Translations under genes and position numbers: made by a program | Origin: Ginsengibacter hankyongi | GTDB taxonomy: Bacteria; Bacteroidota; Bacteroidia; Chitinophagales; Chitinophagaceae | DNA length: 64,000 nucleotides | Reading direction: 5' to 3' | Assembly: GCF_008710285.1 (NCBI RefSeq) | Contig: NZ_VYQF01000002.1 | Span: 1-64,000 of the forward strand | Notes under the pieces: model-generated | The model's database searches: none | The model's input: only the letters and a program-made list of their open reading frames with translations | What the model was told of the DNA's origin: nothing | Shown here: positions 3,758 through 27,461 of the stretch, one piece after another | Numbering within the stretch: position 1 is the stretch's first letter | Layout: the number at the start of each line of letters is the position of its first letter

Positions 3758-5548
3758 ATGGAGCCAAATAATTATTATCAATCAAGAATAGAACTTCTGA
3801 AGACAGAGGGAAAAAAATTACAACAAAAGAAATCAGTTTTTGGGTGGCTCCGTTTTGGAAGTATCGCTGCAGTTGTTGCTGCTTTCTATGTATTATGGTC
3901 ATTAGGTATTTGGTATGCAATAGTTGCTGCCATTTTATTATTGGCAGTTTTTATTCGCTTATTATATGCCGATTTAAAAAATAAGGCATCCATTGATCAC
4001 ATCAATAATCTTATCAATATTAATAATGATGAATTAAAATTTTTGGATGGAAATTATTATGATTTTCCTGCAGGCAATGAACATATTCCACCAGATCATC
4101 TTTATGCAAATGATCTTGATGTTTTTGGCAAAGCTTCTTTATTTCAATACATCACCCGATGCTCTTCCGAGATGGGAAGTTTTCAACTTGCTGAATATTT
4201 AAAATTTCCTGCTGTAACAAGTTTGATTGTTCAAAGGCAAGTTGCTGTAAAGGAATTAGCAAAGAAAATTGAGTGGATCCAGGATCTGGAGGCAAAAGGG
4301 AAAGAAAAACAAATCACTTTTATAACAAAACGCCGGTTAGACAACTGGATTGCAGAACCGCCGGTTTTTTCAAAATTTAAACCCTGGAAATGGTTGCGCT
4401 ACGTGCTTCCTGCAATTATAATTTCCATCGTTACGCTGTATATTTTTGATGCAGTTTCCTCAGGTATATTTTATTTTTTCCTGCTTCTATATGCTGCCAT
4501 TGCTTACCAAATCAATAAGTATGTAGCACCTGTTCATGAAACATTATCCAGGATTGCTGATAAGATTGATACATTGTCAGTAAGTATTGAGCACGTAGAA
4601 AATGCCACATTTGAAAGCCCTTTGCTGAAAGAATTACAATCAGTTTTATTTCATCAAAATAAAAATATTTCACAGGATATTTCCAGGTTGCACAAATTGC
4701 TTGACAGACTTGATTTAAGGTATAATCTTGTATTGTCTTTACCATTAAATATTTTATTGCTTTGGAACCTGCAACAAATGCTGGGCCTGGAAAAATGGAA
4801 ATTGGAACAAAAAAAAAATATTGAAAAGTGGTTTAATACACTGGGGCATATAGAAGCCTTAAATAGCCTTGCGGTACTATGTTTTAATGAACCTTCGTGG
4901 GCTTTCCCGGAGGTTACGGATAATTATTTTTTTATAGAAGGAAAAGAAATCGGTCATCCTTTAATACCAACAGGTAAAAGAGTAAATAATAATATTGAAA
5001 TTACGCATGATGGTGAACTCATGCTGGTAACCGGTTCCAACATGGCCGGCAAGAGCACTTATCTCCGCAGTGTAGGCGTAAACGTTATATTGGCAATGAC
5101 CGGCGCTCCTGTATGCGCCACTTATTTAAAAGTATCGCATGTGCAGGTTATCAGCAGCATGCGCATAACAGATAACCTTGCAGAAAGCACTTCCACTTTT
5201 TATGCTGAATTAAAAAAATTAAAAACCATTATTGAAAAGGTTAATGCGGGAGAGACGGTGTTTATTTTATTAGATGAAATATTAAGAGGCACTAATTCTC
5301 TTGACCGGCACACAGGTTCTGTAGCACTCGTAAAACAATTAATAAAGCATCATGCCGCAGCCATCATTGCAACACACGATCTTGAACTGGCAAAAATAAA
5401 AGACGAATTTCCGGATAGCATTATCAATTACCATTTTGACGTGCAGGTTAGCAATGATGAATTGTATTTCGATTATAAACTAAAGCCCGGTGTTTGCAAT
5501 AGTTTGAACGCCTCTATATTGATGAAGAAAATTGGAATAGAGTTATAA
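3758..5548 (+). CDS. Membrane-anchored MutS-family ATPase
   Basis: This 596-residue protein ends in a MutS-type ABC ATPase domain. It has Walker A GSNMAGKST at 426-434, Walker B FILLDE with Asp506 and Glu507 followed by RGTNSLDRHTGS, and a switch IIATHD near 536. The N-terminus is not a mismatch-recognition domain. Two hydrophobic blocks (about 28-70 and 212-250) predict membrane hairpins, and a MutS core-like helical lever region fills 255-400. There is no Smr domain, so it is not MutS2. Such MutS-related membrane proteins are widespread in Bacteroidota, but their role is not established; mismatch repair should not be assumed. The start follows a -7-like element at 3712. Confidence 0.85.
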   Translation: MEPNNYYQSRIELLKTEGKKLQQKKSVFGWLRFGSIAAVVAAFYVLWSLGIWYAIVAAILLLAVFIRLLYADLKNKASIDHINNLININNDELKFLDGNYYDFPAGNEHIPPDHLYANDLDVFGKASLFQYITRCSSEMGSFQLAEYLKFPAVTSLIVQRQVAVKELAKKIEWIQDLEAKGKEKQITFITKRRLDNWIAEPPVFSKFKPWKWLRYVLPAIIISIVTLYIFDAVSSGIFYFFLLLYAAIAYQINKYVAPVHETLSRIADKIDTLSVSIEHVENATFESPLLKELQSVLFHQNKNISQDISRLHKLLDRLDLRYNLVLSLPLNILLLWNLQQMLGLEKWKLEQKKNIEKWFNTLGHIEALNSLAVLCFNEPSWAFPEVTDNYFFIEGKEIGHPLIPTGKRVNNNIEITHDGELMLVTGSNMAGKSTYLRSVGVNVILAMTGAPVCATYLKVSHVQVISSMRITDNLAESTSTFYAELKKLKTIIEKVNAGETVFILLDEILRGTNSLDRHTGSVALVKQLIKHHAAAIIATHDLELAKIKDEFPDSIINYHFDVQVSNDELYFDYKLKPGVCNSLNASILMKKIGIEL

Positions 5549-23157: not shown

Positions 23158-24828
23158 TCAATCTTTATACACTGGTAATTTCATACAAAATTCAGAGCCT
23201 TTACCTTTTTCACTTTTAAAAGTAAGAGAGCCCGCGTGCCTCTTTACTATTTCGTTTGAAATATATAACCCCAGGCCTAAACCGGGGAAGGTGTTGGATT
23301 TTACTTCTGAAGCTCTGAAAAATCTATTAAATAATTTTGAATGTTGTTCAGTTGGTATTCCAATTCCAAAATCCTCGACGCAAAATTGTAAAACGTCATT
23401 TCTAACCTGCGTCGTTACAATTATGTTGTTTGCATCAGGCGAATATTTAATTGCATTTGAGATAAGATTATTTATTACCTGGCTCAACCTGTTTCGATCG
23501 CCAAAAACTTTACAGGTTTTTGAAAGTTGCAGTTCAATTTTGTGAGTATCCGACGTGATTTGTACTTCATGAATAATTTCAACCACTAACTCATTAAAAT
23601 CAAAAATCGCCTTTTCAAAAATTATCATACCCTCATTAACTTTGGACGCATCTAAAAGATCAGTAATTAAATCATTTAATTTATTTATTTGCTTTTCCAT
23701 CCTGTTCACATAATCAACTGCTCTTGGGTTTTTATCTTTATCAACAGAAAGATTAAGCACATGGCTAAATGCTTTAATAATAGTTACGGGAGTTTTTAGC
23801 TCGTGGCTGGCCATACTTATAAACTCGTCTTTTTGTATCAATGCTAATTTCTGATCTTCTATGTCGATAGCGATTCCGAACCATGCGGTTATTTTTCCTT
23901 CACTATTTTTAAAAGGAAGTGCAGTGCTTACATGCCATCTCCACAAATTATCCGAAGCTCTCAAAAACCTGCATTCAATATTAAAGTCGCATCCTGTTTT
24001 TATTGAATTAGTCCACGATTTTAAAACACGGTCATAATCATCTTTATGCAATACTTTTTGCCATTGTTGTTCCAGGCTTTCCTTTATTGTCATTCCGGTA
24101 TATACATACCATTTTTTATTGAAATAATCAATTTCACCGCCAGGCTTTGCTGTATAAACAATCACAGGCAAATTATCTGCTAAAAATTTAAAATGTTCCC
24201 TGCTTAATGACAGTTCCGTGGTCCTTTCCTGTACACGGTATTCCAACTCATTATTAAGTTGTTCAAGCGAAGATTGGGCCAGCAGCAATTCATCATTTTT
24301 CAGTTTTAATTGCCTTTCAGTTTCTTTCTGATGTGTAAGGTCTGTGACTATAATACTTAACGCAGTTCCGTCATCAATTTCTATAACGGTTAATGAAATC
24401 AGCGTGGGTATTTTTCTTTTTTTATTATCATTTAAATAAATTTCAGCCTTGTTTTCAATTTCCCAGCTCTTTTTAAAAAGGGAATTAAAAAATGTGCAAT
24501 TGTCATGATCTACAAATTTGCCGAAAGAAGTTCCTATTACCCTGGATAGGGGTGACTTAACTATTGCAGCGAAACTTGAATTACTGTATAATATCAATCC
24601 GTCTTTATTAAGGGTAACGGCTCCTTCTTTCATTTTTTCTATAAAGACCCGGTAGGTTTGATCGGCAGACTTAAGGGTATATAATTGAGAGCCCTTTTCG
24701 CTTTGCAAAACCAAAGCATCTACCTGCCCGGTTCGTATGGCTTCTATGGCGTCATTTGCCTCGTCTAGTTGCCACCGCAACTCAGCGTTTTCTTTCTGAA
24801 GTGTTTCGAGTGGTGTTTTTGCATTCAT
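23158..24828 (-). CDS. PAS-PAS sensor histidine kinase of the Kai operon
   Basis: This 556-residue soluble kinase opens with an N-terminal coiled coil (WQLDEANDAIEAIRTGQVDA) typical of KaiBC-linked kinases. PAS domains cover about 58-165 and 210-325; the second carries WRWHVSTALPF. HisKA has FISMASHELKTPV with phospho-acceptor His342. HATPase_c has NNLISNAIKYSP (N box), DFGIGIP (G1) and GLGLGLYIS (G2). No membrane segment is present, so the signal is cytoplasmic. It is the last gene of the kaiC-kaiB-kaiB-kinase operon, 1 base after kaiB2. By analogy with SasA it may read the KaiC/KaiB state, but it lacks the KaiB-like SasA sensor domain; the separate KaiB proteins may bridge that gap. Confidence 0.85.
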   Translation of the reverse strand: MNAKTPLETLQKENAELRWQLDEANDAIEAIRTGQVDALVLQSEKGSQLYTLKSADQTYRVFIEKMKEGAVTLNKDGLILYSNSSFAAIVKSPLSRVIGTSFGKFVDHDNCTFFNSLFKKSWEIENKAEIYLNDNKKRKIPTLISLTVIEIDDGTALSIIVTDLTHQKETERQLKLKNDELLLAQSSLEQLNNELEYRVQERTTELSLSREHFKFLADNLPVIVYTAKPGGEIDYFNKKWYVYTGMTIKESLEQQWQKVLHKDDYDRVLKSWTNSIKTGCDFNIECRFLRASDNLWRWHVSTALPFKNSEGKITAWFGIAIDIEDQKLALIQKDEFISMASHELKTPVTIIKAFSHVLNLSVDKDKNPRAVDYVNRMEKQINKLNDLITDLLDASKVNEGMIIFEKAIFDFNELVVEIIHEVQITSDTHKIELQLSKTCKVFGDRNRLSQVINNLISNAIKYSPDANNIIVTTQVRNDVLQFCVEDFGIGIPTEQHSKLFNRFFRASEVKSNTFPGLGLGLYISNEIVKRHAGSLTFKSEKGKGSEFCMKLPVYKD

Positions 24829-24829
24829 T

Positions 24830-25114
24830 TTATAAATCGTAGTCTAAGCCTTTTAATACTTTGTTAGTATCGGACATATCGCCGATTAAACGTTTTAAAG
24901 GGAGCGGAGAAGATTTTATAAGCATAGGCAATGCGATTAACTGTTCATCTTTTGCTAAAAAAGGCTGCTGATAAATATCAATTATTTCCAGTTTATAATT
25001 GCCGGGGAAATATGTTTCACAAATTTTTTTCATATTGGCAACAGCTCTTACCGAATTAGGTGTAGCTCCAGTTATAAATAATTGCATTTCATAATAGGGC
25101 ACATCATCTTTCAT
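24830..25114 (-). CDS. kaiB: KaiB paralogue 2
   Basis: This 94-residue KaiB-family protein shows the thioredoxin-like KaiB pattern: MQLFITGATPNSVRAVANMK, then YKLEIIDIYQQPFLAKDE and LPMLIKSSPLPLKRLIGD. It conserves the IDIYQQP segment followed by the proline-rich IKSSPLPLKRLIGDMSD region that refolds in cyanobacterial KaiB. It lies 1 base after kaiB1 and before the kinase gene, and it is clearly diverged from kaiB1 (about 40% identity by eye), so the two probably have distinct partners. Confidence 0.88.
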   Translation of the reverse strand: MKDDVPYYEMQLFITGATPNSVRAVANMKKICETYFPGNYKLEIIDIYQQPFLAKDEQLIALPMLIKSSPLPLKRLIGDMSDTNKVLKGLDYDL

Positions 25115-25115
25115 G

Positions 25116-25406
25116 TTATTTTTTTATGGGAACAATATTCAGGCCAACCAATACTTTTTCTTCGTTGGAGAGATCACCAATAATTTTTCGGATAGGTTCG
25201 GGAACTTTTTTAACCAATGTGGGGACCGCAAATATTTGATCGCCTTCTGCTAATTGCGGTTTTTTAAGCAGATCTATTACTTCTAGTTTGTACTTGCCTT
25301 TTAAATGCTCTTCGCAATATTTTTTAAGATTTCGTAAAGCGGTCTGCGATTTAATTGTTTTACCGGCAATATATAATTTTAGTTCCCAAACTTCTTCCAT
25401 ATTCAT
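25116..25406 (-). CDS. kaiB: KaiB paralogue 1
   Basis: This 96-residue KaiB-family protein has [40 protein letters not shown] and [20 protein letters not shown], the standard KaiB signature. It is nearer the cyanobacterial consensus than kaiB2. In KaiC systems KaiB binds the CI ring and resets phosphorylation. No KaiA gene is nearby, so only KaiB-dependent steps could operate here. Located 19 bases after kaiC. Confidence 0.92.
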
Positions 25407-25425
25407 AGAATACTATTTCTTTTAA

Positions 25426-26937
25426 TCACTTTTTAAATAATATTTTTTCGTTTTTCATTTTTAGTTGAAATGCTTCGCGTGCTGAACCCACCAGTATTCC
25501 TTCCGGGCCATTGATAACATTCAATATATCTACTCCTTTATCTGTTATAATAAACTCACGTACTTGCTTGGAGTGATTCATGCCTCTCGATTTCATTATG
25601 TAAATGCCGCGGTTTCTTTCCCCGTTTAATTCAATGTCGCGAACCATCAGCCACGCATCCACCAACGAAGAAACACCTTCGTCGGTCTGTTCATTAATAG
25701 AACTGTTTAAAGTTAAAGCAGTAAACAAAACTGTAATTTGTTCTTTTTGTAAAAAATCTATCAGCCGTATTAATATTGACTTTATTTCACTTACGGTTCC
25801 TACCGTTACGAGATTGGTTATAGGGTCAAGAATTATAGATTTAGGTTTAAACTGTCTTATCAACTTATAAATAGCTAAAAGGTGCATTTCCAAACCGAAA
25901 GTGGTAGGCCTCGAAGCATGGAATTTGAGCAGCCCCTCCTCAACGTAATGTTTTAAATCTAGGCCTATGGATTTCATATTGCGCATGATCTGCTCAGGTG
26001 ATTCTTCAAATGCAAAATAAATACACCGATCGTTACGGCTGCAGCTTGCATGTGCGAAATAAGCGGCAATACTTGTTTTACCGATGCCCCCCGTACCCGA
26101 AACAAGAATGCTGCTTCCTTTAAAAAATCCTTTGCCTCCCAGCATTTCGTCTAGTTTAGTAATGCCCGTGGATACTCGTTTTGAAGAAACTTTATTATTA
26201 AGTTTAAGGGAGGTTACAGGCAAAACGGATATGCCTTCCTCGTCTATCAAAAATGGATATTCATTGGTTCCATGGAAGGATCCCCTGTATTTAATAATAC
26301 GTAAACGTCTTGTTGAAATTTGATTATTCACCCGATGATCAAGAAGTATAACGCAATCAGACACATATTCTTCTAAACCTTCCCTGGTTAAATGGCCATC
26401 ACCCTTCTCACCGGTTATTATCGCAGTAACGCCTTTATCTTTCAGCCATTGAAACAGTCGCCTTAGTTCTGCCCTTAAAATAGCTTTATTCGATAAGCCG
26501 GAAAAGAGATTTTCAATGGTATCAAGCACAATTCTTTTAGCACCTATACTTTTAATGGCATAATCCAGCCTTATAAACAATCCTTCGAGGTTGTATTCAC
26601 CCGTTTCTTCAATTTCCGCACGTTCGATGTGTATATAATCAACCCTGAGCTTTTTTGTGTCGATAAGTTTCTTAAGATCAAACCCAAGCGAAGCCACATT
26701 GGTCGCTAACTCATCTGCTTTCTCTTCGAAAGCAACAAATACCCCGGGCTCGTTATAATTTAGAGCCCCTCTTACTATAAATTCAATAGAAAATAAAGTT
26801 TTGCCTGAGCCGGCTTCGCCACAAATTAAAGTTGGCCGGCCTTTGGGTAATCCACCTTGGGTAATCTCATCCAGTCCGCTTATGCCTGAGGGCGTTTTAG
26901 GCAATTGAGGTAAAATGACTTTTCGTAGTTGAGCCAT
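25426..26937 (-). CDS. kaiC: KaiC-family clock ATPase/kinase
   Basis: This 503-residue protein has two RecA-like domains. CI carries Walker A GEAGSGKT at 40-47 and the catalytic Glu pair in VAFEEKADE. CII carries Walker A GTGGIGKT at 281-288 and FAFEESPEQ. The phosphosite segment NEQTDEGVSSLVDAWL aligns with the cyanobacterial one: Thr418 matches the upstream Thr, and Ser423-Ser424 replace Ser-Thr. The C-terminus is short and basic. KaiC works as a hexamer, phosphorylating itself and hydrolysing ATP. I chose ATG 26935-26937 over the TTG two codons earlier. It heads a four-gene operon with two KaiB genes and a kinase. Confidence 0.94.
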   Translation of the reverse strand: MAQLRKVILPQLPKTPSGISGLDEITQGGLPKGRPTLICGEAGSGKTLFSIEFIVRGALNYNEPGVFVAFEEKADELATNVASLGFDLKKLIDTKKLRVDYIHIERAEIEETGEYNLEGLFIRLDYAIKSIGAKRIVLDTIENLFSGLSNKAILRAELRRLFQWLKDKGVTAIITGEKGDGHLTREGLEEYVSDCVILLDHRVNNQISTRRLRIIKYRGSFHGTNEYPFLIDEEGISVLPVTSLKLNNKVSSKRVSTGITKLDEMLGGKGFFKGSSILVSGTGGIGKTSIAAYFAHASCSRNDRCIYFAFEESPEQIMRNMKSIGLDLKHYVEEGLLKFHASRPTTFGLEMHLLAIYKLIRQFKPKSIILDPITNLVTVGTVSEIKSILIRLIDFLQKEQITVLFTALTLNSSINEQTDEGVSSLVDAWLMVRDIELNGERNRGIYIMKSRGMNHSKQVREFIITDKGVDILNVINGPEGILVGSAREAFQLKMKNEKILFKK

Positions 26938-27461
26938 AATCAATTTGGTTAGAATTTAAAGATAATATGTTTATAAATATCTTTTAATTAGTTTTTAATT
27001 GTTTAAATAAACACTTATCAAAGGCGTTAAATCTTTGAACATACGTAATGACTTTTAAAGGCTTTTGTTCAATTGATAAATATTCGAAATAGTTAAAAAA
27101 TTAATAAATGATATTATTGCATTGTCAATTATTTTACCAAAAAAATGTTGTTAAGAAATATTTATGTCATACGAAAAGGGAAGACTTATAAATTGTGCAG
27201 CATATAGACTATGGTGACAATGGTAATCACTGCAAGCACAATCAAAATAACATCAGGATACTCCTGGATCTTTTTTATTATTGACACAATTGTATTATTA
27301 GGATCTTATATATATAATAAGATTAATAAGTAACGAATGTTTAACGCATCAAGTATAATATTATAAAAAAAAAGCAAAGTAATTCAATAATATCTTCATG
27401 GGTTCGTTATCAATAGCAAGCGAATTAATTTTCCTATTATTAATAACTAACATTCTAAATT
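26938..27461. other. 524-base intergenic region upstream of kaiC and a lipoprotein gene
   Basis: A divergent-control region of 524 bases that is AT-rich. No good TAnnTTTG element is visible ahead of kaiC, which suggests an alternative sigma factor or an activator. Between 27186 and 27331 both strands contain a short open frame: a GTG-started 33-residue frame on the minus strand (27186-27287, hydrophobic, ILIVLAVITIVTIVYMLHNL) and a 40-residue frame on the plus strand from ATG 27211. Either could be a small membrane peptide; neither has strong support. Confidence 0.35.
27186..27287 (-). CDS. Possible 33-residue membrane microprotein
   Basis: From GTG 27285-27287 to TAA 27186-27188 this frame encodes a short basic head (SIIKKIQEYPD) and one strong membrane helix of about 20 residues. 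The helix-and-charged-head layout is what small regulatory membrane peptides look like. It is too short for homology by eye, and the overlapping plus-strand frame is an alternative. Treat as a candidate only. Confidence 0.25.
   Translation of the reverse strand: MSIIKKIQEYPDVILIVLAVITIVTIVYMLHNL

Follow-up and report, generated by a model that had tools for sequence, protein, structure and literature searches.

A KaiC-KaiB-KaiB-kinase operon of Ginsengibacter hankyongi with a conserved Kai-linked module at the N-terminus of its kinase

Cyanobacterial SasA reads KaiC by way of a KaiB-like domain. SasA homologues elsewhere are described as lacking that domain, and the Bacteroidetes in the set of the same report as encoding only KaiB2/KaiC2-like proteins (PMC5520375). 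In Rhodobacter sphaeroides (Cereibacter), KaiBC is reported to act in vitro as an hourglass that needs no KaiA and is driven by the ratio of ATP to ADP, with KaiC assembled into a dodecamer through a C-terminal coiled coil (PMC10076222). Both the timer core and the kaiC-kaiB-PAS kinase operon type are already known, and operons of kaiC, kaiB and a kinase occur outside the cyanobacteria (PMC3164672, PMC4794148, PMC3899966), a point missing from an initial annotation of the present sequence. The locus described here occupies positions 23,158 to 26,937 of a 64,000-nucleotide stretch of Ginsengibacter hankyongi (assembly GCF_008710285.1, contig NZ_VYQF01000002.1, positions 1 to 64,000), hereafter the window, and encodes a KaiC, two KaiB proteins (KaiB1 and KaiB2) and a histidine kinase. 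We interpret it, with a probability of about 0.58, as a KaiBC timer that lacks KaiA and belongs to the R. sphaeroides (KaiC2) type, the state of which reaches a dedicated output kinase through KaiB2 and a module of some 65 residues at the kinase N-terminus.

The operon lies on the minus strand and comprises (i) KaiC (26937-25426, ATG at 26937), 503 residues with two KaiC ATPase domains, of R. sphaeroides (KaiC2) type by similarity; (ii) KaiB1 (25406-25116), 96 residues; (iii) KaiB2 (25114-24830), 94 residues, a faster-evolving paralog; and (iv) a PAS-PAS-HisKA-HATPase histidine kinase (24828-23158), 556 residues, with its domains assigned by Pfam. The gaps between the genes, in this order, are 19, 1 and 1 bases, and the coordinates together with Pfam confirm the gene set and the spacing of 1 to 19 bases initially given. 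The absence of KaiA, first noted for the window, extends to the whole genome (5.5 Mb in 33 contigs, 100% complete as a computed figure): the genome search for kaiA that the initial annotation had called for returned 0 matches to PF07688, with a positive control from S. elongatus. KaiB1 and KaiB2 are the only KaiB matches of this genome, and the operon appears patchy in its neighbourhood, since a KaiB match occurs in just 8 of 149 relatives' genomes, its own included (7 over the cut-off).

The kinase comprises the module (residues 9-73, 24610-24804), built from a long helix, a conserved hairpin and a link to the PAS region, followed by PAS domain 1 (PAS1; residues 69-165, 24334-24624), a generic PAS by Pfam, PAS domain 2 (residues 211-323, 23860-24198) and the HisKA plus HATPase_c core (residues 332-553, 23170-23835), all on the minus strand. 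No PF07689 match is found in the kinase, which agrees with the initial view that it carries no KaiB-like domain, and with HisKA and HATPase_c present it stays below the whole-protein cut-off of SasA NF006800 (134.4 versus 342 bits). The further view of the kinase as giving no clue to how KaiC is read was incomplete, since the N-terminal stretch of ~65 residues forms a module linked to kai operons. The first ~50 residues match no Pfam family over its cut-off, in the window's kinase or in ten further module proteins, and a PDB sequence search with kinase residues 1-180 returned nothing meaningful (best E 0.098). An AlphaFold2 model of residues 1-188 (62 sequences, mean predicted local distance difference test, pLDDT, 86) displays a helix at 6-33, a hairpin at 38-51 and a generic PAS; besides the window's sequence, alignment A5 holds 61 of 77 related sequences and alignment A6 55 of 68. 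Conserved module positions lie partly outside the helix. Residues 31-60 have the lowest model confidence (block means 49-53), yet they include the highly conserved G34, D37, A38, T51, A55 and D56, a combination that would fit an element ordered on a partner. As it occurs almost exclusively next to Kai clock genes, in many bacteria and some archaea, the module is a good candidate for the timer-reading part.

The linkage of the module to kai genes holds in plasmid records and genome draws alike. Kinase residues 1-73, run by tblastn against 72,556 plasmid records, find the module in 12 records, eight of them Cereibacter strains of one species, and all 12 are among the 17 records that hold kaiB; the catalytic core of the kinase matches at least 5,000 plasmid records. 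The five plasmid regions examined, including that of R. sphaeroides 2.4.1, all carry kaiC, kaiB (one of them two) and a kinase. A profile of eight kai-operon sequences, the window's kinase among them (A1), matched 30 of 395 genomes of the window's phylum, probably Bacteroidota in the wide sense, in which genome G192 has a kinase N-terminus identical to that of a Chlorobiaceae locus (L138). Twenty-eight of these matches are strong (E<1e-18), all with kaiB on the same strand within ~300 bases; two, the window's own genome (G000) and G023, had supplied profile rows. In a draw of 398 genomes of a second phylum, centred on an Azospirillum (G529) that was picked for having the module, 12 genomes matched, ten of them at E<1e-8 with kaiB within ~110 bases, G529 being one of the ten. 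Neither draw contains a strong module match without kaiB. The P-values computed for the linkage (2e-35, 1.4e-11 and 1.4e-46) assume independent genomes, which is untrue, and the counts alone are used.

A wider scan with six kai-operon rows and one genome per species, starting from a pattern list of at least 595, yielded 383 confirmed loci, the best 80 of which were scanned for neighbours: kaiB is present in 77 of the 80 stretches and kaiC in 73. Two of the three loci without kaiB start at a contig end (L133, L165) and the third, L094, keeps a kaiB remnant. By record titles, the module loci are distributed over Bacteroidota, Chlorobi, alpha-, beta- and gammaproteobacteria, delta-type groups, Verrucomicrobia, Chloroflexi, Acidobacteria, Hydrogenedentes, Marinimicrobia, a cyanobacterium and archaea of the Methanoregula and Methanoperedens types. 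Taking the 80 loci with 23 others, a same-strand kaiB accompanies 100 of 103 modules, its end within 150 bases of the module in 93 and at a median distance of 36 bases over the 100; the only identical pair among the 103 is one genome stretch present twice (L063 and L138). The window's own genome contains a single module against 43 HisKA matches. Viral contigs gave 17 pattern matches and no module relative, and no natural KaiB-module fusion occurs among the 103 module open reading frames. As an observation in its own right, locus L094 (Dyadobacter sp. CY323) retains at 4800-4955 approximately the C-terminal half of a KaiB2 (E 3.4e-18) directly before an intact module kinase, with no kaiC or kaiB1 found upstream; it is a decayed operon and, as such, a natural kinase without a timer.

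Several points weigh against the interpretation of the operon given above. Linkage alone is no proof of contact, because the module is co-inherited with the operon, and all profile rows derive from kai operons. At most 15 first-look candidates were scored per genome in the two draws, so that modules may have been missed, also away from kaiB. KaiB over the cut-off is found in 37 of the 395 and 37 of the 398 genomes, and it stands without a detected module in 9 and 27 of these, respectively. Four kaiB-less genomes show weak partial module matches (G159, G443 at 1.5e-4 and 3.6e-4, G646 and G876); with a second match in G531, the five weak matches to the profile range from E 1.5e-4 to 4.6e-4, span at most its first two thirds and represent either distant relatives outside Kai operons or chance. 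Separately, seven genomes of the second draw (G564, G607, G639, G671, G687, G691 and G719) carry two kaiB genes separated by ~1.9-2.7 kb, an interval that could accommodate a kaiC, and gave no module match; they may represent a different Kai arrangement.

The module is constant while the output behind it swaps. In ten module proteins analysed by Pfam, the catalytic parts include (i) kinases of the HisKA, HWE (the R. sphaeroides locus L025), HisKA_2 (archaeal L107 and cyanobacterial L130) and HisKA_3 (L156) types and (ii) non-kinase outputs behind module and PAS1, namely GGDEF-EAL (L102, L161) and an HD_5 domain of HD-GYP type (L063), whereas L064 consists of module and PAS alone, with no further domain. 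A tally over the best 80 of the 383 loci, which relies on characteristic sequence motifs, with ten proteins checked by Pfam, counts 40 HisKA-type kinases, 24 proteins with the kinase ATPase motif and another H box, 4 HisKA_2, 1 HisKA_3, 3 GGDEF, 2 HD-GYP and 6 with none or truncated.

Which of the two KaiB proteins pairs with the module was addressed by rank partial correlations of pairwise distances over 70 of 82 loci, with bootstraps over loci. KaiB2 and the module correlate at 0.47 (bootstrap 0.26 to 0.62), compared with 0.22 for the module and PAS1 of the same protein; the other values are 0.39 for KaiC-KaiB1, 0.11 for KaiC-module, 0.10 for KaiC-KaiB2 and 0.07 for KaiB1-module. The KaiB2-module value exceeds that of KaiB1-module in 98.8% of the bootstraps, in 97.5% of them the module is followed more closely by KaiB2 than by PAS1, and the KaiB2-module correlation is similar in the 50 loci close to the window (0.43) and in the remaining 20 (0.45). 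These figures lend suggestive support to the role that the initial annotation had proposed for the second KaiB in reading KaiC. At the level of single positions, 86 loci with KaiB2 were compared with 14 without (one genome twice), with ten truncated, decayed or unsure loci omitted. The helix positions L17, L21, E23, A24, A30, I31, R32, D37 and A38 are kept with or without KaiB2, whereas T51 (91 versus 36% without), A55 (95 versus 29%) and D56 (90 versus 36%) are kept mostly with KaiB2, a split that serves as a lead, since the 86 were selected for resembling a sequence that has KaiB2 and the 14 cover few lineages. Because the correlations and the module positions divide in this manner, KaiB1 would serve KaiC and KaiB2 the module, and the module helix may meet KaiC/KaiB1 or make a dimer.

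This pairing has its own counter-evidence. Among the 20 loci distant from the window, the module correlates more strongly with KaiC (0.58) than with KaiB2 (0.45). Removal of the most divergent rows lowers the KaiB2-module value to 0.30-0.33, and without the ten most divergent KaiB2 sequences it stands at 0.30, about level with KaiC-KaiB1 (0.32) and KaiB1-KaiB2 (0.28). Neighbouring genes that move together can by themselves produce a distance correlation, and KaiB2 and the module adjoin. KaiB2 is also not needed by the module everywhere, since some systems pair the module with one KaiB, including R. sphaeroides L025, the Chlorobi L138 and L152, L168-L171 and L173.

What the sequences show is the operon anatomy, the linkage, the output swapping, the two classes of KaiB and the missing coil, whereas it is inferred that the module reads the timer, that KaiB2 assists it in this and that the genes form a timekeeper in the first place. 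In the proposed sequence of events, KaiC would autophosphorylate on Ser423/Ser424 and, at high ADP, KaiB1 would promote its dephosphorylation, as homology with R. sphaeroides suggests. KaiB2, carrying the KaiC state, would dock on the N-terminal module, a step to which linkage, output swapping and correlated divergence point, and the docked module, with its helix and conserved hairpin, would set the kinase through PAS1. The module may in this way be the standard plug by which KaiBC timers drive varied outputs.

The KaiC of the window is, by sequence similarity, a tail-less variant of the KaiC2 or R. sphaeroides type. It matches PF06745 in two stretches (E 2.8e-113, 377.4 bits for the whole protein; cut-off 26.6), passes NCBIfam NF006799 'circadian clock protein KaiC' (732.9 versus 408 bits) and remains below the circ_KaiC cut-off (TIGR02655; 364.5 versus 546.25 bits). 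Each half displays one Walker A motif, GEAGSGKT and GTGGIGKT, and both halves contain FEE. Its closest solved relatives are R. sphaeroides KaiC 8db3/8dba (E 1.7e-184), followed by cyanobacterial 1u9i (1.8e-101), and identity to KaiC of R. sphaeroides 2.4.1 (L025) is 54.7% over 486 residues. Ser423-Ser424 (25666-25671, minus strand) align with Ser413-Ser414, the phosphorylated pair in R. sphaeroides KaiC, and a Ser-Ser phosphosite is present in 100 of 103 compared KaiC rows. A C-terminal tail of 13 residues plus stop (25426-25467, minus strand) replaces the R. sphaeroides coiled coil: after the conserved GSAREAF, the window's KaiC continues for 13 residues, compared with 67-95 in 91 of the 103 rows. 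The KaiC of a locus of the same genus (L073), with a tail of 76 residues, is its sister in the tree (support 98, starred), so that coil loss inside the genus is the simplest reading. In a tree of 75 of 101 KaiC rows, 12 are tail-less at a cut of 60 residues, a distribution requiring eight changes, at least four of them by well supported branches, in counts that cannot separate gain from loss. This missing tail was overlooked in the initial annotation.

The coiled-coil extension is described as predominant, not universal, in the R. sphaeroides-type subgroup, other KaiBC systems without coil are mentioned, and R. sphaeroides KaiC cut at Glu490 is reported as a hexamer with a similar phosphorylation rate and little dephosphorylation in ADP (PMC10076222). 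By extension from this truncation mutant, the coil-less KaiC would be a single hexamer that phosphorylates, but would lose its phosphates slowly unless KaiB acts, and would therefore rely on KaiB for dephosphorylation.

Because the coil accelerates dephosphorylation in R. sphaeroides, its absence also speaks for an energy or stress switch instead of a timer, in which KaiC would monitor ATP/ADP and, together with KaiB, tune the kinase with no daily rhythm involved. Precedents include stress roles of KaiC in Legionella and roles in stress and biofilm in Pseudomonas, the latter without circadian evidence (PMC11832031), as well as KaiB/KaiC homologues believed to be clock-independent, among them Synechocystis KaiC2-KaiB2 (PMC11372060). 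Against this, the Ser-Ser phosphosite and the Walker A motifs of both halves are intact in the window's KaiC, and R. sphaeroides KaiBC behaves in vitro as an hourglass that ATP/ADP drives (PMC10076222). A switch of this kind is doubtful, though it is the alternative that survives best, and the proposed wiring would be identical whether the set is a timer or an energy or stress switch.

Two observations near kaiC stand apart from this question. Two contigs of a same-genus genome (L010 and L016 of G013) carry further kaiC-kaiB pairs, with a long-tailed KaiC unlike the window's by eye. Between kaiC and the neighbouring gene, a 33-residue GTG open reading frame (27186-27287, minus strand) resembles a single membrane helix; tblastn over the collected loci found no relative, returning, apart from the copies of the window itself, a single match of 10 residues at E 1.8.

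KaiB1 and KaiB2 look like old paralogs, because the two copies separate across phyla in the KaiB tree: 49 first and 49 second copies split with one change, at moderate support (89). The tree covers 115 of 192 rows in 85 columns (near copies and rows under 75 residues dropped), with few well supported forks and a root that the data do not fix; when 16 single KaiBs and S. elongatus are included, the labels 'first' and 'second' need six changes each. The window's KaiB1 falls in the first set, with which R. sphaeroides-type single KaiBs (L023-L025) also group, and identity to R. sphaeroides KaiB is 58.0% for KaiB1 and 40.0% for KaiB2, compared with 45% between the two. The Pfam KaiB domain scores 98.7 bits in KaiB1 and 83.8 in KaiB2 (cut-off 27), and both stay below the NCBIfam equivalog cut-offs (NF006798, 107 and 85 versus 110; TIGR02654, 102 and 84 versus 145.3). 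Second copies are more divergent (mean distance 0.62 versus 0.34 for first copies), but they have conserved residues that distinguish them (Tyr48 in 44 of the 49 copies, Gln49 in 43), which speaks against decay. Two KaiBs accompany the module in 68 of the 73 loci with kaiC and module among the best 80 of 383, and one in the other five; in the Bacteroidota draw, 20 of the 28 strong module genomes have two or more and eight have one. The single KaiBs of L124, L143 and L149 may be an artefact of merged open reading frames, and visual inspection of the 242-base gap of L068, over three frames, revealed no KaiB2 remnant. As a side observation, the KaiC and KaiBs of L155, a metagenome-assembled genome labelled Williamsia sp. 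(Actinomycetota), group inside Bacteroidota, so that this contig is probably misassigned or recently transferred.

The structure model of KaiB2 (mean pLDDT 90) displays a beta-alpha-beta-alpha-beta-beta-alpha topology of the fold-switched, SasA-like form. Its best matches comprise Legionella KaiB, fold-switched KaiB and KaiC-bound R. sphaeroides KaiB, with the SasA N-domain lower; 1wwj, which we take to be ground-state KaiB, appears at rank 26 with a template modelling score of 0.44. The modelling covered KaiB2 alone, and the SasA-like fold may not distinguish it from KaiB1. A sequence affinity to SasA greater for KaiB2 than for KaiB1 was considered and found unsupported by NCBIfam (27.6 versus 30 bits); phmmer lends it weak support, with a SasA match for KaiB2 (E 1.1e-4) and none up to 0.01 for KaiB1.

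Being a KaiB by Pfam and modelled in the KaiC-binding fold, KaiB2 could also act on KaiC in competition with KaiB1, resetting a coil-less KaiC for example, and be unrelated to the kinase. This is unlikely given that its correlation with KaiC is 0.10 against 0.47 with the module, that T51, A55 and D56 of the module are kept mostly where KaiB2 is present, and that KaiB2 is the rule also where the operon's KaiC keeps its coil.

Slightly less credible is an arrangement in which the kinase is an input device, with a PAS domain sensing redox, oxygen or light and signalling to or beside KaiBC, and the module handing the information in. Such a role has been suggested for the operon kinase of R. sphaeroides (PMC5520375, PMC10931921). 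The PAS1 model finds PAS domains of FixL, DosP and LOV proteins among its Foldseek matches, a resemblance that PAS domains show generally. Occurrence of the module on GGDEF-EAL and HD-GYP-type enzymes, which are usually output enzymes, argues in the opposite direction, as does L064, with module and PAS alone. The least probable alternative, a mere coiled-coil dimerisation or signalling helix co-inherited with an old operon and making no Kai contact, draws on the long helix modelled over residues 6-33 and on a compact operon passed on as a block, but it is at odds with a module that remains conserved when the catalytic domain following it changes, that has conserved positions outside the helix, that diverges half as fast as PAS1 of the same protein (mean distance 0.58 versus 1.19) and that KaiB2 follows better than PAS1 does in 97.5% of bootstraps.

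The preferred reading, in which KaiB2 and the module link KaiC to the kinase, can be extended tentatively, and at less than even odds, to a split SasA: the KaiB-like sensor of the output kinase would be the separate KaiB2, plugging into the module across approximately eleven bacterial and archaeal phyla (by record titles), with one plug serving four histidine kinase types and cyclic di-GMP (c-di-GMP) enzymes, here in combination with a coil-less KaiC and resetting by KaiB1/KaiB2. Three elements appear to be new: the module linked to kai genes, the presence of two KaiBs as a rule together with their separate pairings, and, in this lineage, a KaiC without its coil. No description of them was found in the open-licence literature covered, which does not imply that the module is unpublished. 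Their interest lies in how non-cyanobacterial KaiC timers pass on their state, a question that a module of 65 residues makes directly testable. The module is moreover a sequence marker for KaiBC outputs from Bacteroidota to methanogens and ties some KaiBC timers to c-di-GMP enzymes, with the second KaiB and a KaiC that has lost its coil serving as natural variants for probing the role of each part.

Compared with the known systems, the locus resembles KaiBC of R. sphaeroides (plasmid pB, L025) in its kaiC-kaiB-kinase order, its Ser-Ser phosphosite and the same N-terminal kinase module, and differs by a second KaiB, a HisKA instead of an HWE core and a coil-less KaiC. Operons of kaiC and kaiB with a histidine kinase or GGDEF/EAL protein, comprising the 'orange group' (PMC3164672), BRADO1478-1481 (PMC3899966) and R. 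palustris (PMC4794148), share gene order and type of partner; a shared N-terminal module and a double-KaiB rule are not described in the excerpts of those reports. The Nt_HK kinases with an RtaNt domain likewise adjoin kaiC and have a conserved N-terminus thought to meet KaiC, but their operons are kaiB-less and RtaNt is described as receiver- and KaiB/SasA-like, which sets them apart by description (PMC3164672). SasA, the KaiC output kinase of cyanobacteria, is similar in being a KaiC-tied HisKA kinase, and the KaiB2 model has the same fold as the SasA N-domain; in contrast to SasA, the kinase of the window has no KaiB-like domain, and the KaiB-like part is a separate protein.

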